Positions 10,514 to 34,060 of a DNA stretch of 37,289 nucleotides are shown here, one piece after another (position 1 is the stretch's first letter; each line of letters starts with the position of its first letter). The notes beneath the pieces are model-generated. The model did no database searches. It had not been told where the DNA came from and saw only the letters and a list, made by a program, of their open reading frames with translations. The DNA is from Dehalococcoidales bacterium. Lineage in GTDB: Bacteria > Chloroflexota > Dehalococcoidia > Dehalococcoidales > Fen-1064. The stretch is from the NCBI GenBank assembly GCA_035529395.1, contig DATKWT010000007.1, positions 1 through 37,289 on the forward strand. The letters are read 5' to 3'. The position numbers and the translations under genes were made by a program.

Positions 10514-10542
10514 TTGACACCGCTGTACATAAAGTGTAAAAT
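10514..10542 (+). promoter_or_regulatory. Sigma-70-like promoter of the tubulin-like gene, with palindrome over the -10
   Basis: TTGACA (10514-10519), a 17-bp spacer, then TAAAAT (10537-10542). This is a near-consensus housekeeping promoter 28 nt upstream of the GTG start. GTGTA-AAA-TACAC (10534-10546) is a perfect inverted repeat centred on the -10 and could be a repressor operator. Transcription would start near 10549. Confidence 0.75.
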
Positions 10543-10570: not shown

Positions 10571-11746
10571 GTGAAACTGCTGGTTATCGGTTGTGGGCAG
10601 TGTGGCGGTAGAGTTGCTGATGAGTTTGCCCGAAGGGACAGAAGAGCGCGCGAGCAACGCGGCGTGTCAATTCTCAGCGAAGCCCTGGCTGTCAACACCG
10701 ATGTTGCCGACCTCTCCGGGCTGGTTTTTATCAAGACTGACCAGCAGCACCGGATTCTCATCGGGGGCCGTAAGTCCGGCGGCCACGGTGTTGGTAAAAT
10801 CAACGAGCTCGGTGCCGAAATCGCCAGAGAGGAAGGCGACCGGGTTCTAGAAGCCATAGGGAACTCGCAGCAGCACTCACGAGCAGATGCCTTTTTACTG
10901 GTCGCCGGTGCCGCCGGGGGTACCGGCTCCGGTGCGATTGCGGAGCTGACCCATCAGGTAAAGGAGCACCATCCGGATAAGCCGGTGTACACCCTTATTC
11001 TTCTTCCTTTCCGCTATGAAGAACTGACCGAAGAAAGAGCCATCTACAACGTGGGGACATGCCTGAAATCCGCATACCTGGTGTCTGATGCCGTCTTCCT
11101 GGTTGACAACCAGCGGTACATCACGGACGGCGAATCTATTAAAAACAACCTGACCAGGATAAACACGCGTGTGGTAGGTCCCTTCTATAACCTGCTGTGT
11201 GCCGGTGAAGAGAAAGACCCCAAGCGTATCGGCTCCCGTCTTGTTGATGCGGGCGACATAATCCAGACGCTATCGGGGTGGACCGTCATCGGGCACGGGC
11301 AGGCGTCTGTCTCGCGTGCCAGATTCCCCATGGCTGGGAAGCTTGACTTCAGGAACAAGGTGACTGAGACCGAAAAGGGAGTCCACGCAATGAACCAGGC
11401 TATTGCGAGCTTGTCACTCAAGTGCAGGCCGGAAGATGCCCGGAAAGCGCTCTACCTCCTGACGGCACCGCCGGAGGAAATGAGCATGAACCTGATTACG
11501 GACCTCTCTATGACACTGAAGAGCGTCGCCACGGAAGCCCTTATCCGCAGTGGCGACTATCCGAGAGGTCGGGACTCTATTCATGTTACTGTCATCCTGT
11601 CTGAACTGACGAATTCAGGCAGGATATCGGACTACTTCAGCAAGGCAATCCGCTACATCTACCTTAAGAAGCGGCGGGTAGGAGAACTCAAAGAAGGGCG
11701 GGAAGGACTGGAGGAAGCCCTGCGAGATATACCCCTGCTGCTGTAA
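10571..11746 (+). CDS. Tubulin/FtsZ-superfamily GTPase (non-canonical, FtsZ/CetZ-like)
   Basis: A 391-residue protein. The glycine-rich N-terminus (VIGCGQCGGRVADEF, 5-19) and GGTGSG at 116-121 form the nucleotide-binding loops of the tubulin superfamily. LVDAGDI at 224-230 (Asp 226 and Asp 229) sits where the T7 catalytic loop of FtsZ and CetZ lies and would hydrolyse GTP in the neighbouring subunit. The protein lacks the NTD context and C-terminal membrane-anchor-binding tail of cell-division FtsZ, so it is probably not the division protein. It starts with GTG; GAGGT lies about 6 nt upstream, behind a strong promoter. It is monocistronic and converges, 52 bp away, with two coiled-coil genes. 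A cytoskeletal or scaffold role is inferred from family only. Confidence 0.85.
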   Translation: MKLLVIGCGQCGGRVADEFARRDRRAREQRGVSILSEALAVNTDVADLSGLVFIKTDQQHRILIGGRKSGGHGVGKINELGAEIAREEGDRVLEAIGNSQQHSRADAFLLVAGAAGGTGSGAIAELTHQVKEHHPDKPVYTLILLPFRYEELTEERAIYNVGTCLKSAYLVSDAVFLVDNQRYITDGESIKNNLTRINTRVVGPFYNLLCAGEEKDPKRIGSRLVDAGDIIQTLSGWTVIGHGQASVSRARFPMAGKLDFRNKVTETEKGVHAMNQAIASLSLKCRPEDARKALYLLTAPPEEMSMNLITDLSMTLKSVATEALIRSGDYPRGRDSIHVTVILSELTNSGRISDYFSKAIRYIYLKKRRVGELKEGREGLEEALRDIPLLL

Positions 11747-11798: not shown

Positions 11799-12257
11799 CT
11801 ATGACGATTTTTCGCCCTGGAAGATGCTCCAGGCTTGTGTTCGGTCTTCAGTAAACTTCTGCCATACTTCCTTGATGGTTTCGTCGCGAACTTTCAAGGC
11901 TTCTCCTACGCTCCGACGGTACTCGTCGTGGACCTTCTCAATCGCCTTCCGGTATACCTCTTCAGCCTGTTGTTCCACCTGCTCCCTGTTCTTCAGGGCT
12001 TTTTCCATCGCCTTCTCACAGGTACTATTGGCCCGCTGTTCGCCTGCCTTGAAGGCCTTTTCCATCTGTTGTTCTTGCGTCTTATACCCTTTAGATACCT
12101 CTTTCTGAGCCTGGCGGTACATTGTGTAGGCGTTTTCGGCCTGGCTGAGAAGTCCCGCAATGTACTTACCGGCCAACTCCGGGGTTTCAGCGGCCGGTTG
12201 TGCAACCGTCTCTGGTGGCCGGGTGGTAGTGGTTTCGGTCTGCTCCTGTTTCTCCAT
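11799..12257 (-). CDS. Coiled-coil protein, uncharacterised
   Basis: A 152-residue, highly charged, helical protein. Residues 1-30 are rich in Thr, Pro, Glu and Gln and probably disordered; residues about 32-145 are one long Lys/Glu/Gln/Ala-rich helix with coiled-coil character (for example EKAFKAGEQ, EKALKNREQ, RKAIEKVHDEYRR). It has no signal peptide, membrane segment or enzyme motif. Start ATG 12257 has a GGGGG-type site upstream. It follows the long repeat protein on the same strand with a 124-bp gap and shares its layout (acidic, Pro/Thr-rich tail plus long helix), so both may act together. Function unknown. Confidence 0.7.
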   Translation of the reverse strand: MEKQEQTETTTTRPPETVAQPAAETPELAGKYIAGLLSQAENAYTMYRQAQKEVSKGYKTQEQQMEKAFKAGEQRANSTCEKAMEKALKNREQVEQQAEEVYRKAIEKVHDEYRRSVGEALKVRDETIKEVWQKFTEDRTQAWSIFQGEKSS

Positions 12258-12381: not shown

Positions 12382-14013
12382 TCAGGCTTTATCTTCTTCG
12401 GTCTTCTCTTCGGTTTCTCTGGACTGGTCGGCCGCATACATCTTCGCCAGGGACTCCATCCGGTCCTCGATTCCTGTCCGGACTCTCTTTTCTCCGTCGC
12501 GCTTCGGCGGGCTGGATTTGATCTCTTCGGGCGCTGCTTCGGTAACATTCGGCGGAGTCTCGCTGGTTCCTTGGAGTATCTCAGCATCTGCCTCGGTCTC
12601 GTCGTCATCGGAACCGTGCACTACGGCGGCTTCCTCAACGGCCTGCCCAGCCTCCTCTTGTGTCATTCTGGCCGTCTCCCTGGTGGTATCAAGCAGTTGC
12701 TCGAAGACTCCTATCCAGGCCTCGGCGGCTTTCTCAGCACCTTTCTTGGATGATTCGGTTGCCTCCCGGGCTGCCTTCAGCGATGCTTCGGCGGCAATCC
12801 TGACTGACTCACTCACCTCCTGAGCGCGGCTGATGGCTGCCTGTGACGCTTGTGTCGATATCTCGGCTGCCTGCTTGGCGGATTCGCTTGCCTTACGCGC
12901 CACCTCCATGGTCTCTCGTGAGGCAGCTGCCCATGCCGAAACAGTATCAATGGCGAACTTGCTTATTTCTTCGGCCCTGTCGATAGCTCTCTGTGACGCT
13001 TGTTTCGATTCCTCGACGGCCGCCCGGACTGTCTCCCCCACTTCCTCGGCCTTGTTCAGGGCCGCCTGAGAGGCCCTGGTAGCTTCCTGGGCGGCTGCAG
13101 CAGCGGATCGTGTCGTTTCCTCCGCCCTGCGCAGGACTTCCTGTGAAGCCCGTCTTGATTCATGCTCTACTACAGCAGCGGACCGGGTGGCTTCCTCAGC
13201 CCTGGTTACGGTTTCTTGCGATGTCTTACTGGTTTCCTCGACTGTCTCCTCAGCCAGACGCACGAGTTCATCGGCCTTGCTTATCAGCTCCGTTGACGCC
13301 TTCCTTGTCTCCTGGATTGCCTCTGTGGCGAACCTGGCAGCGTTTTCCGCCCGGCCTATTGCCTGTTCAAAGGCTTCGGGGTATGTTACGATTGCCTGCT
13401 CGGCGGATTTGGCGAGTTTTTCGGCCTTGCGTACCGCGTCTCGCGATGCCTTCACCGCTCTTTCAATGGTCGCCTTCGCGGACTTGCTGGTCTCCTCAAT
13501 CCTATCCGTAGCTTCCTGGGAAGTGTCCGTCGCTCGCCGGGCAATCTCCGTTATTGACTGACTGAGCTCCTTAATCCTGTCCGTAGCTTCCTGGGACGAT
13601 TCCGATGCCTCATCGGCCGCTTCTCTGGCCAGTGTGACTGCTTCCTGTGCCTTGAGGCTGATTTGTCTTGATGCCTGACGGGAGCCCTTAGCCTCTTCCA
13701 TCGCGGCTTCAAAGGCGGTCGCTGACGCTTGAAAATCTTTCTGGACCGCCTTGACTATCTTCTCGGCCCGGCTTACTGCCTCCTGGGACGCACGTGTTGC
13801 CACTCTGGCAGCTTCTTCCGTCTGTCTGCTTATCTCCTCGGCCCTGGTAAACATCCTCTGCGAGATACGAACAGACTCCTCTGCGGCGTTCTTGGCGAGC
13901 AGGCCTAGCTGGTCAGCCTTGGCCACCGCCTCCTCAAAGGTGAAGCCGTCTTCCTCGGGAGGAGCGGCTTCCTCCGGCTTAGTTTCCTGGGGTCTGATTT
14001 GTTTCTTTGTCAT
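12382..14013 (-). CDS. Long alpha-helical protein built of 25-residue repeats
   Basis: A 543-residue protein. Residues 1-24 are a charged, proline-containing leader. Residues 25-463 form an array of 17 full 25-residue units plus one 14-residue unit. Residues 464-543 are an acidic, proline-containing tail. Each unit follows roughly A-S-Q-E-A-x-x-R-A-E-E, a variable middle with small residues at the a/d-like positions, then E-E-A/T. Twenty-five residues equal two heptads plus one hendecad (7 turns), which predicts a nearly straight, weakly twisted coiled coil. It has no signal peptide, membrane helix or catalytic motif. Start ATG 14013 has AGGAG about 9 nt upstream. Neighbours are the second coiled-coil gene downstream and the convergent tubulin-like GTPase. 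Its function is not recognised; a filament, spacer or granule/scaffold protein is possible. Confidence 0.8.
   Translation of the reverse strand: MTKKQIRPQETKPEEAAPPEEDGFTFEEAVAKADQLGLLAKNAAEESVRISQRMFTRAEEISRQTEEAARVATRASQEAVSRAEKIVKAVQKDFQASATAFEAAMEEAKGSRQASRQISLKAQEAVTLAREAADEASESSQEATDRIKELSQSITEIARRATDTSQEATDRIEETSKSAKATIERAVKASRDAVRKAEKLAKSAEQAIVTYPEAFEQAIGRAENAARFATEAIQETRKASTELISKADELVRLAEETVEETSKTSQETVTRAEEATRSAAVVEHESRRASQEVLRRAEETTRSAAAAAQEATRASQAALNKAEEVGETVRAAVEESKQASQRAIDRAEEISKFAIDTVSAWAAASRETMEVARKASESAKQAAEISTQASQAAISRAQEVSESVRIAAEASLKAAREATESSKKGAEKAAEAWIGVFEQLLDTTRETARMTQEEAGQAVEEAAVVHGSDDDETEADAEILQGTSETPPNVTEAAPEEIKSSPPKRDGEKRVRTGIEDRMESLAKMYAADQSRETEEKTEEDKA
12625..13941 (-). 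repeat. 75-bp-period coding repeat array
   Basis: This is the DNA behind residues 25-463 of the helical repeat protein: 17 units of 75 bp and one of 42 bp (13675-13716, residues 100-113). Units are diverged at the DNA level but keep exact length and register, which points to selection on protein periodicity and not to recent duplication. Confidence 0.78.
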
Positions 14014-14160
14014 GATGCGCTACTCCTGCATATTCTAGAACAGGTTAGCCACTTTATCAACCTTTTGTACTCGTCCGGAACATTAGTGACACTCCAGTAC
14101 AGGCGATGCTGGTTGCCGGAGTGCTGCTGGGTTCTCTCCTGCTCTCCCTGGTCCCGGGGT

Positions 14161-28139: not shown

Positions 28140-29409
28140 TGTTGAAGAGGCCCAGGAGAGGCTTCTTGGCTTTGTTGATGTTCTGGGGAAGGAGGGAGTC
28201 CTCATCCTGGACTCCCCGGGTCAGGTACTTGCCGAGGATGTTTGCTCGGAAATCGATGTGCCTCCACTGGACAACTCTGCCATGGACGGCTATGCAGTCC
28301 GGTCAGGCGATACCGAAGGGGCAAGCCAGGATTCACCGCGACTGCTCCGCGTGATTGATACCGTAGCCGCAGGTTATGTCTCCGGGCAGGAGGTGACTCC
28401 GGGTACTGCAATCCGAATCATGACCGGCGCACCGATACCAGGGGGTGCCGATACTGTCGTCCAGTTTGAAAACACCGATGAGGTACAGCGACGCGAGGCC
28501 ACCGCCGGAAAGCCAATCACGGAGATAGGCATTCTGCATGAGACAGAGGTCGGCCTCAATGTCCGCAGGGCCGGGGAAGATATCAGGAAGGGTGCGCTGG
28601 TCCTGGCGGAAGGGACCGTAATCAGACCGGCTGAGGTGGGTGTCCTGGCTTCCCTGGGGAAGACCCACGTGGCGGTTATTTCCCGACCGGTAGTGGCGAT
28701 ACTGGCTACCGGTGATGAGCTTGTCGAGATAGGACAGCCGCTGCCGGCAGGTAAGATATACAACAGCAATACCTATAGCGTCGCTGCTCTGGTGCGGCGC
28801 TATGGTGGCATACCCAGGATTCTGGGGATAGCTCTCGATACAGAGGATTCCTTGGTAGCGGCACTCCGACAGGGGCTTGACGCCGACATGCTGATTACGT
28901 GCGGCGGGGTCTCCATGGGGGACTATGATGTGGTCAAGGACGTACTTGCCCGGGAGGGTGAAATCAACTTCTGGACGGTGCGGATGAAGCCGGGGAAACC
29001 GCTTGCCTTTGGCACTATCAGGGGGTGTGACAGAACGGGAGCACCGAAAGGGATTCCCCACCTCGGCCTGCCCGGTAACCCGGTGAGCTCGATGGTCACT
29101 TTCGAGATGTTTGCCCGCCCGGCTATCTTAAAGATGATGGGTAGGAAAAACTGGGATAAACCTGCGGTTGAAGCTGTACTGGAGGACACGGTTACCAATC
29201 GGGACGGACGCCGCGTCTTCGCGAGGGCGATTGTAGAAAAACGTGACGGCCAGTACTTCGCCCGGATAACAGGTCCCCAGGGTTCCGGTGTGCTTACCTC
29301 GATGAGCCTGGCCAACGGATTGGTGATTGTCCCCGAGGACACGGCTGAGGTGCAAGCAGGCGACATTGTCCGAGTGATGATGCTGGACTGGAATGAGGAA
29401 GTCGTCTAG
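28132..29409 (+). CDS. moeA: Molybdopterin molybdenumtransferase (MoeA)
   Basis: A 425-residue protein of normal length. PPLDNSAMDGYAVRS (44-58) is the MoeA N-terminal signature. The MoaB/MogA-like domain carries ILATGDELVEIGQPLPAGKI with the substrate-binding TGDE, and CGGVSMGDYD with the active-site GGVS-x-G-x-x-D. LPGNPVSSMVTFEMFARP near residue 320 is also diagnostic; the C-terminal beta domain ends the protein. MoeA inserts molybdenum (or tungsten) into adenylylated molybdopterin. ATG 28132 overlaps mobA by 8 bp; a longer frame to 28072 lies inside mobA and lacks family sequence. The stop overlaps the convergent surface-protein stop at a shared CTAG. Confidence 0.95.
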   Translation: MISVEEAQERLLGFVDVLGKEGVLILDSPGQVLAEDVCSEIDVPPLDNSAMDGYAVRSGDTEGASQDSPRLLRVIDTVAAGYVSGQEVTPGTAIRIMTGAPIPGGADTVVQFENTDEVQRREATAGKPITEIGILHETEVGLNVRRAGEDIRKGALVLAEGTVIRPAEVGVLASLGKTHVAVISRPVVAILATGDELVEIGQPLPAGKIYNSNTYSVAALVRRYGGIPRILGIALDTEDSLVAALRQGLDADMLITCGGVSMGDYDVVKDVLAREGEINFWTVRMKPGKPLAFGTIRGCDRTGAPKGIPHLGLPGNPVSSMVTFEMFARPAILKMMGRKNWDKPAVEAVLEDTVTNRDGRRVFARAIVEKRDGQYFARITGPQGSGVLTSMSLANGLVIVPEDTAEVQAGDIVRVMMLDWNEEVV

Positions 29410-31133
29410 GCCCTGCGTCTCCTCAGGAGCAGGAAGGCCAGGACCGCCAGCAAAGTGACCACACCGGCAGAGATACCCCCAACGAGACCCCAGTTGAACG
29501 GCATGCCCAATGGTACCTGAAGTGCTTTCAGGTCTTCCGCCACCAACGGTATTTCTTTCTCTTCTACTGCGAAGCTGTCCGTCATGTTGTCAATGCTCAC
29601 GTCATAGACTCCCGGCCTGTCCTGGGAGGTAATGAAGACCACCGTCTGGCTGCTGCTGCCTTCCAGCGACACGTCCTGAAAGGCGGTGACCACGCCGTTT
29701 ATTTCCAGTTCTACCCTATGGGTACTGGCGAAGTCACCGGTGTTGGTGACCAGGACGCTGATAGTAACGTCCTCTCTGCTGCTGACTTTACCCGGAGCCA
29801 CAGTGAGCCGGCTGGTGATGAAGGCGACCGGAGTTGGTGGAAGTGAGGTCGCTTCGACGGTAAAAGTGCCGGAGAGTGTATCGATTTCTACTTCATAGAT
29901 TCCCGGGGTATCATGTGAGGTGGTAAAGACTACGGTTCGGCTGGTGTCGCCATTCAGGGGGAGTTGCTGAACGGCGGTGGTTGTACCATCGATCTTCAAT
30001 GCCACCAGGTATGTTCCGGCAAGGTCCCCGGTATTGCTGACGAGCACCTTGATGGTTATCGTTTGCTGCATGCCTGCCGTGCCGGGTGTGATGGTAAGGC
30101 CGCTAACAGAGAATGCCGCCGGTCGGGTGGAAGCGATAACCGTATAGGGTGTGAAGTGAGTCACTTCCGTGGTCACTGTGTCGTTCACCGGGTCGACCGT
30201 AGATTCAAGGGGCAGCCACTCTTCGAGTTGGCCGTCCCATACGGCGGCAGTCAGCTGCCTCTCAGCGATACCCTCCGGTATCAGGGACTGGTCATAGCCC
30301 AGGCGGATGCGTACCGGCTGGTCAAACGTGGCACCATCCGGACCAAAATCGTAGACCGGACTGACAATCTCTGCATTTGTGGGAGCCGGCGGCGGTTCGT
30401 CCATTTCGGTAATGGTTAACTCGTTCAACGGTCCTCCCGCGGTTGTGAGGGCCGTGGTGCCCTGCGCGACGGTCAGTGTTGCTCTGCCGTCCGTGGATTC
30501 GGTGGTGAGTTCGCCATCCGGTGCCTCTTCGGTAGTGCTGTCCCCATCTCCTCCGTCGCTGCCATTACTACTGTCGGACTCCTGGTAGGTGACCGTGCCT
30601 ATTTCCTGGGACGGCGGCAGATATGAGGTGACAGTCAGCCATATCCCGGCCTGGACCTTGGCCTCAACAACCTCCCCGATGATGGTATAGGTACCGGACA
30701 TGCTGCCAGGGGGGAATGTCAAGGGAACAACGACGGTCTCCTCGACCGTCTCACCCTTGCCGGGAAACGGTTCTATGTTAAGGGTATAACTGGGATGAAG
30801 TGTCACCTCAGCCCCGGTATCACTGTGCCGGGCCATAATACGGGAAGTGATGTAGGCTGCACTGGGTGTCAGCCCTAGCAGGTCTTCTATGCAGGTGGCC
30901 TGACCGCTAACGGTGATGTAGAATACCTGGCTTCCCTGCACCTCGGTCTGGCTGAGCTGCATACTGTAGCTGAAGGTGAAGTAGTCGTCTATACTGAAGG
31001 CGGATGCCGGACTGGTGGTGATGAATGCCAGGCACATCGACAGGATGAGAATAACTGGTAACCAGCGGGCAGGCTGCGTTTGCCACCAGGTAGACCACAG
31101 CCGCCAGGCTTGTTGAGCCACTCCGTTGCACAC
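29406..31133 (-). CDS. Cell-surface protein with CARDB-like repeats and C-terminal anchor
   Basis: A 575-residue exported protein. Residues about 23-45 are a signal sequence (LPVILILSMCLAFITTSPAS). Residues 46-185 are a beta-rich domain beginning with SIDDYFTFSYSMQLSQTEV. A Ser/Asp/Glu/Thr linker follows, then a ZU5-like segment (VYDFGPDGATFDQPVRIRL ... THFTPYTVIAS). Two CARDB/Ig-like repeats each contain (T)I-V/K-VLV-x-NTGD, with TVVFTTS or TVVFITS. The C-terminus is a membrane helix (WGLVGGISAGVVTLLAVLAF) ending in RRRRA. It shares its second half with the next gene. Start is GTG 31133; a GTG at 31121 is spaced better from AAGGGG and is an alternative. It is probably co-transcribed with the larger paralogue upstream. 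Role: adhesion or envelope structure (inferred). Confidence 0.75.
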   Translation of the reverse strand: MCNGVAQQAWRLWSTWWQTQPARWLPVILILSMCLAFITTSPASAFSIDDYFTFSYSMQLSQTEVQGSQVFYITVSGQATCIEDLLGLTPSAAYITSRIMARHSDTGAEVTLHPSYTLNIEPFPGKGETVEETVVVPLTFPPGSMSGTYTIIGEVVEAKVQAGIWLTVTSYLPPSQEIGTVTYQESDSSNGSDGGDGDSTTEEAPDGELTTESTDGRATLTVAQGTTALTTAGGPLNELTITEMDEPPPAPTNAEIVSPVYDFGPDGATFDQPVRIRLGYDQSLIPEGIAERQLTAAVWDGQLEEWLPLESTVDPVNDTVTTEVTHFTPYTVIASTRPAAFSVSGLTITPGTAGMQQTITIKVLVSNTGDLAGTYLVALKIDGTTTAVQQLPLNGDTSRTVVFTTSHDTPGIYEVEIDTLSGTFTVEATSLPPTPVAFITSRLTVAPGKVSSREDVTISVLVTNTGDFASTHRVELEINGVVTAFQDVSLEGSSSQTVVFITSQDRPGVYDVSIDNMTDSFAVEEKEIPLVAEDLKALQVPLGMPFNWGLVGGISAGVVTLLAVLAFLLLRRRRA

Positions 31134-31235
31134 CCCTTAAGGTTTACGTTTGCTCATTTCATGCAGAAGGGAGGAGTGTTTACCCCTCCCCTCTGTGTTA
31201 TACTTATCCAGTTCCATAAGACAGGGGACTCTGGC

Positions 31236-33902
31236 CTAGTATCTCCGGCGCCTCCACAGCAGTATACCGACGACTATCGCGATGACGACTACGCCGCCAA
31301 TGATGCCGCCAATGAGTGCCCAGTTGGTTCCTACGTCATCATCTTCGATTTCCGGCTTCACGACGGTAAAGCTTGCCGATAGGTCATCGATGTCGACGGT
31401 GTAGATTCCGCCCATATCCTCGGACGTGGTGAAGGTCACCGTCTGGCTTGCGCCGGCGGCCAGTTTTACCATCTCGGTCTCCACAACCACGCCGTCTATC
31501 TTCAGTTCGACAAGGTAGGTGCCTTCCTGGCCGCCACGGTTGGCCACCCGGACGCTGATGGTAACGGTGTCACCGGGTTCGACCCTGGATGGGGTCACGG
31601 AAAGGTTGCTGGTGAAGATGTCCGCTGGTTTCGGCGGTACGATTACCGGTGGCGCTGTGACGGTGAACCTTCCGGTAAGGCCGTTGATGCTGATAGCGTA
31701 AGTACCATCAGCTTCTTTTGAGATGGTGAAAGATACCGTGACGTTCCCGTGGCCAGCAAGGGATATTTCCTTGGTCTCAGCCACTTCATTATTAATCATC
31801 AGTTCCAGAATATAGGAGCCGGAAAGGTCTCCGGTGTTCTCAACCAAGACACTGATTGTGACATCTTCGTCGATTTCAACCTCGTCAGGCATCACTGTCA
31901 GGTTGCTGGTCTGAAAGGAGGCGGGGGCGGTAGCCAACACAACGGCGAAGGTGGAGAAGTGGGTGACGTACGTGGTGACGGTGTTGTTCACCGTGTCAAC
32001 CACGGTCAAGAGCTTGATCCACTCTCCGGTGACCTCGTCCCAGACGACAATGACGATGTCCTCTTCATTAAAGCCCGCCGGTAGATCGGCTTCGGAATAC
32101 GACAGGGTGATGCCCACTGGCGGGTCAAACGTCGCCCCCTCCGGTCCGAAGGTGTAAGTCAGGGCGACCATGGAGTGGTCCGGGGGTGGTGGTGGCGGCA
32201 TTTCCATCTCGGTGGCGCTTATGAATGTCAGTGGCTCGCCTTCTGCGGTAAGACCTGTCGTTCCCTCGGGAACCGTGACCCAGGCCTGCCCATCTTCGGT
32301 CGTGGCAGTGACCTCGGTAAGGAATAAGCCGTCCTCTACCATGTCTTCAGACAGACAGGTAACGCCCGGTCCCTCCACGCACTCCGGTGCCTCCTCTTCA
32401 CCGTCGGGGGGCGGAGGGGGCGGAGGGGGCGGAGCCAGCGGCGTAGCGGTGGCACGGCCAATGGGCAAATCACTGCCAAGATAGATGTCGGCAAGCTTCC
32501 CTACCGTGAGGTCATTGATGCCCTCGGTAAACCACATCTCATAGCTGCCGCCGCTCTCAATTACGGTGGGTGCAGCTACCGAACTCCACAGACCGCCGGT
32601 GCTGCCGGCGAGGTCGCTGGCGCTCTGAATGGCCCAGGTCGTCCCATTACCGGAGGTAGCGTAGCCGATGGCCGTATTAGTACTGGCGAGGGTGGTCTTG
32701 ATAGTGGTCAGGTCCAGGGCGAGGATTGCGTCCAGGATATCGCCCACATCTTTAGCCGCAAGCGCGGTCCAGATATCACCGAGGCTGAATGACTGGAGTT
32801 CACTCCAGATAGTATCCACGCCCGTCCTGGTAAGGTTGGTCCTCGCCCCGGTGTACCACATATGGTACGTGCTGCCAACTTTGACCACACAGGGGTCGCC
32901 GACACTTTCCCAGACCGGCGTGCTGCTTGGGAGTACTTTGCTGTTCTGAACGGTCCAGGTCGTGCCATTAGCGGATTCGGCGTAGCCGATGACGGCGGCC
33001 GTGCCGTCAAGGACACCAATCGCAGCATCAAAGTCGGCGTTACCGGTATCTATCAGTGCATCGGCCCATTGCGACATCGTAAGGTCAGACTCGGTTCTCG
33101 TGTACCACATCTTATATGTGGTGTCATCACTATCATAGATTACACAGGGAGCGCCCACGCTGTCTCCAAGGTTGCCGTCCACAGCGGGGAAGACCTGGTC
33201 ATTCGGACTCCCCCAGGTTAAGCCGCCGTCGGTGGAGGTGGCGTGGCCGATGACGGTCCTGGTGCCATTCAGCACTGTCTCTACCGCAGTCTTCCGGTTG
33301 GCCTGGGTCTCGCCAAACCCGCTCAGGACAGGTGTCCAGTCGGCGGCGATTACCAGGTCTGATTCGGCCCTGGTGTACCACATGTGATAGGTGCCGCCAA
33401 TATTGACCACGGTAGGTGTGCCTTCACCGGTGAGTATGCCGCCGCCATCGTTCAGTACGTCATTGTTCTGAACGGTCCAGGTTATGCCGTCGGTTGAAGT
33501 GGCATACCCAATGACTGTGGTAGCACTGTCCAGAAGAGCGACCATGTCAGCCGCGTCCAAGGTGGCTGCCTTGTCTAATAGGCTATCAAGGTCCTGGGCA
33601 AGGATGTCATCGATAAAGTCAGAAAAGTCATACGTGCCGAGGTCATTGAGGCGAGACAGTACCTCGGTTTCGGTCTCGTTGAGATTAAGACGCGTGAACC
33701 ACATCTTGTAGGTGGCTCCGTCTTTAATCACCCACGAGTCGACCACAGCTCTTAGCCCGCCCATGGTGAGTTCGCCGGTGTATTTGGTCCAGGCCTGACC
33801 TGTGGGGTTTGCCGAGGCCGGGTTGTCCGCGACGATCGGGACAAGACTGAGGGCCAGCATTGACACCAGGATTATCGTCAGCACCTTGGTCATTGACTTC
33901 AT
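31236..33902 (-). CDS. Large surface protein: five-blade propeller-like repeats, CARDB-like repeats, C-terminal anchor
   Basis: An 888-residue exported protein. Residues 1-32 are a signal peptide (TKVLTIILVSMLALSLVPIV, ending PASA). Residues 40-490 contain five repeats of Y-(K/H/E)-MW-(F/Y)-T at about 66, 173, 264, 347 and 455, each followed by IG-x-A-(T/E)-S and usually -G-x-TW. This is the hallmark of five-bladed GH43/sucrose-like propellers. A nine-proline run (about 490-499), an acidic segment with three cysteines, a ZU5-like domain (580-655) and two CARDB-like repeats (660-840) follow. The last 29 residues are a helix ending in RRRRY. ATG 33902 follows GGAGGTGA by 4-7 nt; the longer frame to 33983 lacks a signal peptide. 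A glycan-binding role is inferred; no catalytic residues could be identified. Confidence 0.8.
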   Translation of the reverse strand: MKSMTKVLTIILVSMLALSLVPIVADNPASANPTGQAWTKYTGELTMGGLRAVVDSWVIKDGATYKMWFTRLNLNETETEVLSRLNDLGTYDFSDFIDDILAQDLDSLLDKAATLDAADMVALLDSATTVIGYATSTDGITWTVQNNDVLNDGGGILTGEGTPTVVNIGGTYHMWYTRAESDLVIAADWTPVLSGFGETQANRKTAVETVLNGTRTVIGHATSTDGGLTWGSPNDQVFPAVDGNLGDSVGAPCVIYDSDDTTYKMWYTRTESDLTMSQWADALIDTGNADFDAAIGVLDGTAAVIGYAESANGTTWTVQNSKVLPSSTPVWESVGDPCVVKVGSTYHMWYTGARTNLTRTGVDTIWSELQSFSLGDIWTALAAKDVGDILDAILALDLTTIKTTLASTNTAIGYATSGNGTTWAIQSASDLAGSTGGLWSSVAAPTVIESGGSYEMWFTEGINDLTVGKLADIYLGSDLPIGRATATPLAPPPPPPPPPDGEEEAPECVEGPGVTCLSEDMVEDGLFLTEVTATTEDGQAWVTVPEGTTGLTAEGEPLTFISATEMEMPPPPPPDHSMVALTYTFGPEGATFDPPVGITLSYSEADLPAGFNEEDIVIVVWDEVTGEWIKLLTVVDTVNNTVTTYVTHFSTFAVVLATAPASFQTSNLTVMPDEVEIDEDVTISVLVENTGDLSGSYILELMINNEVAETKEISLAGHGNVTVSFTISKEADGTYAISINGLTGRFTVTAPPVIVPPKPADIFTSNLSVTPSRVEPGDTVTISVRVANRGGQEGTYLVELKIDGVVVETEMVKLAAGASQTVTFTTSEDMGGIYTVDIDDLSASFTVVKPEIEDDDVGTNWALIGGIIGGVVVIAIVVGILLWRRRRY

Positions 33903-33942
33903 ACAGTCACCTCCAGTACAAGCAAGATATAGAGATAGAATT

Positions 33943-33971
33943 ATTTTCAAGTAATCCTGTCTATTTGTCAA
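33943..33971 (-). promoter_or_regulatory. Sigma-70-like promoter of the surface protein genes
   Basis: On the minus strand, TTGACA (33971-33966), 17-bp spacer, GAAAAT (33948-33943). It lies about 40 nt upstream of the ATG at 33902 and probably drives both surface-protein genes. Confidence 0.55.
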
Positions 33972-34060
33972 TACACCTGGCATATACCGTATGTTCAGAT
34001 GCTACCTTTGTGGCGGTGTTTCCCCATGTGTGGATACGTGGTATTCCTGCCAGGTGATAG

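Follow-up and report, generated by a model that had tools for sequence, protein, structure and literature searches.

The window, by which we mean the whole stretch of 37,289 nucleotides that was analysed, carried three neighbouring genes, here called T1, B, and A. T1 (positions 10571 to 11746, plus strand) encoded a CetZ-like tubulin of 391 residues, and the two other genes were located on the minus strand: A (12382 to 14013) encoded a rod protein of 543 residues, and B (11799 to 12257), which lay downstream of A on the same strand, encoded a single-helix protein of 152 residues. T1 ran convergently with both B and A, and since A and T1 are convergent they are not co-transcribed. Promoter-like sites, identified by consensus match, were present upstream of T1 (10514 to 10542, plus strand, 11/12) and of A (14032 to 14060, minus strand, 10/12). 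The open reading frame of A began with ATG and was represented by homologues in related genomes. Comparison with the sister species gave dN/dS values of 0.40 for A, 0.26 for B, and 0.11 for T1; all three genes are under purifying selection, A the least.

The rod of A extended from residue 25 to about residue 463 (12628 to 13941, minus strand) and, as the original prediction had stated, consisted of 17 units of exactly 25 residues and one unit of 14. The evidence for the rod came from the autocorrelation, the profile, the hydrophobic periodicity, and the unit parse, together with the helices of an AlphaFold2 model. The autocorrelation was highest at lag 25 (z = 12.9 relative to composition-shuffled sequences) and had harmonics at 50, 75, and 100, and the column entropy of the units was 54.1 bits, compared with 71.1 bits (sd 0.83) for the shuffles. 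The units started at residues 25, 50, 75, and 100, and then every 25 residues from 114 to 439, with the single 14-residue unit at residues 100-113 (13675 to 13716, minus strand) being one hendecad short. A single-slip scan on the pure 25-residue register placed the best slip at -11 or +14, which are equivalent and amount to one hendecad, and never at ±1 or 2, in agreement with the claim that no unit slips by one or two residues. The last units were degenerate, and an independent profile placed an 11-residue step near residue 400. The literal signature ascribed to every unit did not hold, because [AT][SF][QRE]EA at the start fitted 3 of the 18 units and [RK]AEE at positions 8-11 fitted 5. A small residue was found at position 1 in 16/18 units and Ala at position 5 in 11/18 and at position 9 in 14, and the mean identity between the units was 26%.

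The hydrophobic pattern of the unit was 4-4-3 + 4-3 + 4-3, formed mostly by Ala, and the Fourier peak of hydrophobicity was at 3.570 residues per turn (25/7). The same period was kept across the family. Among 62 homologues of A, which were chosen by their C-terminal motif irrespective of period, the top lag was 25 or one of its multiples in 56, z at lag 25 exceeded 6 in 60, and the median hydrophobic periodicity was 3.58 residues per turn. In a drifting profile search the spacing of successive anchors was 7, 11, 14, 18, or 25 residues in 990 of 1018 cases and was never 23, 24, 26, or 27. A hydrophobic period close to 3.57 residues is expected of a long-pitch, nearly straight rod, so this part of the proposed near-straight, non-heptad coil agreed with the exact period (11+7+7), while the coiled-coil state itself stays a prediction. 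No 75-bp tandem array was present in A at the DNA level, which indicates that the repeats are old, and a recent DNA duplication was rejected on this ground. The AlphaFold2 model, calculated with 21 homologues as input, had low confidence overall (mean pLDDT 46) and contained long helices at residues 26-172, 183-203, and 211-462. The PDB matches of A were mostly designed helical bundles, and we take them to reflect its composition.

No family in Pfam or NCBIfam reached its cut-off for A, consistent with the statement that no named family has this repeat. Homology to MCP, LEA, or phasin families, which had been named as possible counter-evidence, was not found: neither the MCP signalling domain nor LEA matched A in Pfam or NCBIfam at E values up to 0.1, nor did they match any of the 21 homologues, and the phasin matches stayed below cut-off. 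For BORCS6 (PF10157), A scored 20 bits against a gathering threshold of 35, with 8/21 homologues matching at E values up to 0.001. Both BORCS6 and lipo_Ag473 were rejected as being below cut-off, and their matches were attributed to helical composition.

The C-terminal region of A consisted of a linker (residues 463-505; 12499 to 12627, minus strand) predicted to be unstructured (pLDDT about 30-38), a conserved motif, RMESLAKMY (residues 518-526; 12436 to 12462, minus strand), and an acidic tail (residues 533-543; 12385 to 12417, minus strand), with acidic ends also present in the homologues. The original prediction of an acidic and disordered tail holds in part, since the most conserved element of the family and a predicted helix also lie there. 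In the AlphaFold2 model a helix spanned residues 506-542, with pLDDT about 80 over residues 510-530. In the 21 homologues R518 and L522 were invariant and M525 was conserved in at least 90%. The best-conserved part of the family was therefore this motif, R-[LM]-[ED]-x-L-x-[RK]-M-[YF], and not the repeat, and in the 2.36-Mb genome of the window the pattern matched once, in A. The rod varied in length, unit number, and sequence with its period kept, and the sequence at the tip of the tail was fixed, as would be expected of a spacer carrying a docking peptide. We regard the motif as a candidate docking peptide, and the chance that A docks directly through it appears about even.

T1 matched both CetZ domain profiles above their curated cut-offs, namely PF00091 with 97.2 bits (E = 1.9e-27, cut-off 33) and PF21011 (CetZ_C) with 71.9 bits (E = 5.8e-20, cut-off 21.6), and its best solved relative was 4b46 (9e-45). 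The GTP-binding motif GGTGSG (G116-G121) and the T7-type acidic residues D226 and D229 were invariant in 20 T1 proteins. By its domains and conserved GTPase residues T1 is CetZ-like, and its polymerisation and a role in cell shape are predicted. Its terminal peptide, DIPLLL (11726 to 11743, plus strand), resembled the core of the FtsZ C-terminal peptide, which reads LDIPAFLRR in the same genome; a DIPSLL-type terminal peptide was common to T1 and the other CetZ paralogues. Two to four CetZ-like paralogues were counted per genome, and a canonical FtsZ, separate from T1, was present in 16/16 genomes tested. In the genome of the window, three more CetZ-like genes were located at L051:1744-3523, L052:9591-10769, and L053:353-1525; the one on L051 had a paralogue of B alongside and a membrane transporter-like gene at the place where A would be expected. 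B was modelled as a helix of residues 26-146 with pLDDT up to 98 and weakly resembled Phasin_2 and ATP-synthase b, and a fold search with its model gave no match. It was found beside 46 of the 74 T1 genes and was missing beside many others.

When 132 distinct CetZ-like proteins were placed in a tree, T1 formed one clade of 74. Of the 71 T1 loci that could be evaluated, 68 had A as a neighbour, 65 of them scored automatically and three by hand (L143, the divergent L071, and L042, where A lies upstream and runs in the same direction); no A was nearby at L065, L127, and L140, and three further T1 genes lay at contig ends and were hence not evaluable. In a test by position only, 69 T1 genes had a convergent ORF within 2.2 kb that was 250 residues or longer; this ORF carried the strict motif in its last 60 residues in 53 cases, had z at lag 25 above 6 in 60, and showed either property in 63. 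The other CetZ-like paralogues had A nearby only when they were in tandem with T1. The gene order in many relatives was A and B facing T1, often followed by the paralogue T2, gapdh, and enolase, with dnaX, a gene of 101 residues, and recR on the other side. In the genome of the window, T2 was on a different contig (L052), at the dnaX-gapdh place, and T1, B, and A were in the window. T2 alone at the gapdh/dnaX place was not accompanied by A. The flanking genes thus vary by lineage, from dnaX, gapdh, and enolase to unrelated genes in the family of the window, and A and T1 remain together. One chromosome (G008) carried two nearly identical T1-B-A loci (L033 and L034) about 1.37 Mb apart, which are either a recent duplication or an assembly artefact.

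The presence of the two genes was also correlated. Among 43 classified genomes that were at least 90% complete, 26 had T1 and A, 17 had neither, and none had one alone, in a count uncorrected for kinship that includes G053 (above 5% contamination) and G055 (with A inferred from contig-edge pieces). Weak matches such as those in G047 and G058 belonged to a membrane-anchored sibling family and were left out of the counts of A. In the genus g51, which is probably Dehalogenimonas, four of eight genomes combined T1 and A with the membrane-anchored sibling, and the other four had none of the three and retained only a T2-like paralogue or nothing. Divergent CetZ-like proteins without the terminal DIPSLL were observed in g51 genomes that lacked T1 (L200:6262-7473, L201:6170-7408, L202:6160-7266), which suggests that this peptide was lost along with T1 and A. 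As judged from gene position and joint inheritance, the genetic link of A and T1 is strong, and A very probably depends on T1 for its function.

Of 61 relatives, 35 had homologues of A, some of the weak matches being the sibling family. Among 301 sampled genomes of the phylum, those with A belonged to Dehalococcoidales, with a single exception from a different order of that class. The proposed search for homologues and their neighbours in Chloroflexota therefore revealed an A family across Dehalococcoidales with a CetZ-like tubulin as its near-constant convergent partner. From these homologues, A represents an unnamed protein family of wall-less Dehalococcoidales that is co-inherited with one CetZ-type gene. 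In the family that probably includes Dehalococcoides mccartyi 195 and Dehalogenimonas lykanthroporepellens, 18-50 reductive-dehalogenase matches per genome were counted. None of 72 genomes of the order had a murC match above the cut-off, which agrees with Dehalococcoides lacking peptidoglycan. Loss of the cell wall as the driver of T1 and A presence within the order was rejected because murC was not found in genomes with or without T1 and so does not separate them.

A second rod family shared the 25-residue period and was distinguished by a conserved N-terminal TKPLPQILDEMEANIRAAAEAARRAEEAA segment and a C-terminal transmembrane helix. This sibling family was found in 22/62 genomes (for example at L178:1173-3704 and L178:3845-5308, minus strand, L063:6902-8569, and L179:1910-3580), was not present in the genome of the window, and was missing from the g51 genomes without T1 and A. 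At L063 the sibling gene adjoined T1 and A, and two adjacent sibling genes were present in a genome which we take to be that of D. mccartyi 195. The repeat also occurred in two other settings. A PAS/histidine-kinase protein (L180:1709-4390, minus strand) had a regular 25-residue linker repeat (z 24.6 at lag 25), with a response-regulator gene alongside, and at L060:7651-9990 (minus strand) an A-like 25-residue rod was fused to C-terminal TPR-like repeats, with the docking motif replaced, in a 20-kb stretch without a CetZ-like gene. The 25-residue repeat thus appears to serve these bacteria as a general rod module, and the distinguishing marks of A, as far as its sequence and setting indicate, are its tail and its tubulin neighbour.

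Given its co-inheritance with T1, the most likely role of A is as a structural partner within an unstudied bacterial cytoskeleton. Our preferred reading, to which we assign a probability of roughly 0.6, is that A acts as a scaffold or cross-linker of the T1 CetZ-like cytoskeleton and docks through its C-terminal helix. A would be a dedicated accessory protein of the T1 tubulin, a "bacterial MAP", whose rod of about 65 nm, probably coiled-coil and nearly straight, could serve as a spacer or bundling element, and whose flexible tail, ending in the conserved short helix, may dock either onto T1 filaments or onto an adaptor, for example B. In these bacteria without peptidoglycan, A, T1, and B could together form a cytoskeleton for cell shape or membrane organisation that exists alongside the FtsZ division ring. 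We infer the coiled-coil state, the physical binding, the filament or cross-link role, and the cell-shape function of A from the observations above. The subunit repeat of FtsZ/CetZ filaments is roughly 43 Å, and one 25-residue unit is about 37 Å long, so that a ruler with one unit per tubulin subunit is unlikely. In its broader form, the proposal is that peptidoglycan-less Dehalococcoidales, including the cultured Dehalococcoides and Dehalogenimonas, have a two-part cytoskeleton of a CetZ-class tubulin and an obligate 25-repeat rod with a docking motif, in some species with membrane-anchored rods in addition; we consider this tentative, with odds slightly below even.

The main rival is that A self-assembles into a crescentin-like scaffold of the intermediate-filament type, which would take part in the same process as T1 with no contact, its motif binding the membrane, the envelope, or another protein. 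A is a long rod with flexible ends, the sibling proteins of the same period carry a C-terminal transmembrane helix, and the kinase and the TPR protein share the repeat, which means that the rod by itself needs no tubulin. The presence of A, however, tracks T1 specifically and not T2 or FtsZ, and we consider an independent filament unlikely, at something like one chance in five. Far less probable is a rigid monomeric single α-helix that would hold the tail motif and the N-terminus apart and connect T1 to an unknown N-terminal partner with no coiled coil. The helix of A is highly charged and rich in Ala and Glu with few large hydrophobic residues, and the unit number differs among homologues with the tail motif fixed, but the exact 3.57-residue hydrophobic periodicity across the family points to a helix-helix seam. 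It is still slightly more doubtful that A and B are phasin- or perilipin-like helices coating lipid or polyhydroxyalkanoate granules. Like Phasin_2, they have amphipathic Ala-rich helices, with Thr and Ser also abundant in the repeats, and sub-threshold Phasin_2 matches were obtained for B (E = 0.005) and for two of 21 A members (best 1.7e-7). Against a granule role, the proteins of the window scored below the curated cut-off (for PF09361, 17.4 bits for B against a gathering threshold of 24.9 and no match for A), PhaC_N was absent from 20/20 genomes with the Caulobacter control positive, and the gene neighbours differ, with strict linkage to a tubulin. Hitch-hiking of functionally unrelated neighbours is the least probable explanation, since shared ancestry within one order and a single genome of another order in the same class would account for part of the linkage but not for the persistence of the pair amid differing genes, its joint absence from half of the sampled g51 genomes, or the lone T2 without A.

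Among known systems, SF-assemblin, which forms striated microtubule-associated fibres in algae, is built of 29-residue segments of four heptads and a skip residue (PMC8435291). Both SF-assemblin and A are segmented helical rods with an exact non-heptad unit, a non-helical end, and a tubulin association, which for A is by linkage. SF-assemblin differs in being eukaryotic, in its period of 29 instead of 25 (7+7+11), and in having its head at the N-terminus; the A family had a mean z of 15.0 at lag 25 and 4.1 at lag 29 and so departed from the 29-residue period of SF-assemblin and giardin. We know of no C-terminal motif of the A type in SF-assemblin. By analogy, SF-assemblin is the nearest counterpart of A in its presumed working, not by descent. 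Crescentin and other bacterial coiled-coil scaffolds are long cytoplasmic helical rods with heptads and flexible ends; A resembles crescentin as a long helical rod with flexible ends and a candidate shape scaffold, and differs in its 25-residue unit and in its link to a tubulin paralogue. In Prosthecobacter, BtubA/B is accompanied by the bacterial kinesin light chain. Both that system and the T1-A loci combine a bacterial gene of the tubulin superfamily with a dedicated non-tubulin accessory gene, whereas T1 is CetZ-like and not tubulin-like and A is a repeat rod and not a TPR protein. T1 shares the GTPase and CetZ_C domains with CetZ of Euryarchaeota (PMC9856176, PMC9871819), its nearest solved structure being 4b46, and differs in being bacterial, in its FtsZ-like terminal DIPSLL peptide, and in the two to four paralogues per genome.

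Sparse CetZ-like groups have been described in Chloroflexota-Dehalococcoidia (PMC9871819), and a CetZ survey called the family archaea-specific (PMC9856176). Transcriptome work on Dehalococcoides listed several genes as "FtsZ" (PMC5102406), which probably include CetZ-like ones. In the open-licence literature we found no report of A, of its repeat, of its pairing with one CetZ paralogue, or of A and B as CetZ partners, and no paper on a 25-residue repeat in bacterial coiled coils. If the broader proposal of a two-part cytoskeleton is true, it would represent the first partner system known to be dedicated to a bacterial CetZ. Little is known of the partners of CetZ-class tubulins, the setting of shape in bacteria without peptidoglycan is an open question, and T1 has an almost obligate partner gene. 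The short candidate docking motif can be mutated, T2 and FtsZ provide built-in negative controls, and cultured relatives exist. For the design of nearly straight coiled coils, the exact 25-residue repeat also offers a natural template. Elsewhere in the window, two adjacent large proteins of 575 and 915 residues with CARDB domains (29406 to 33983, minus strand) are probably surface proteins.
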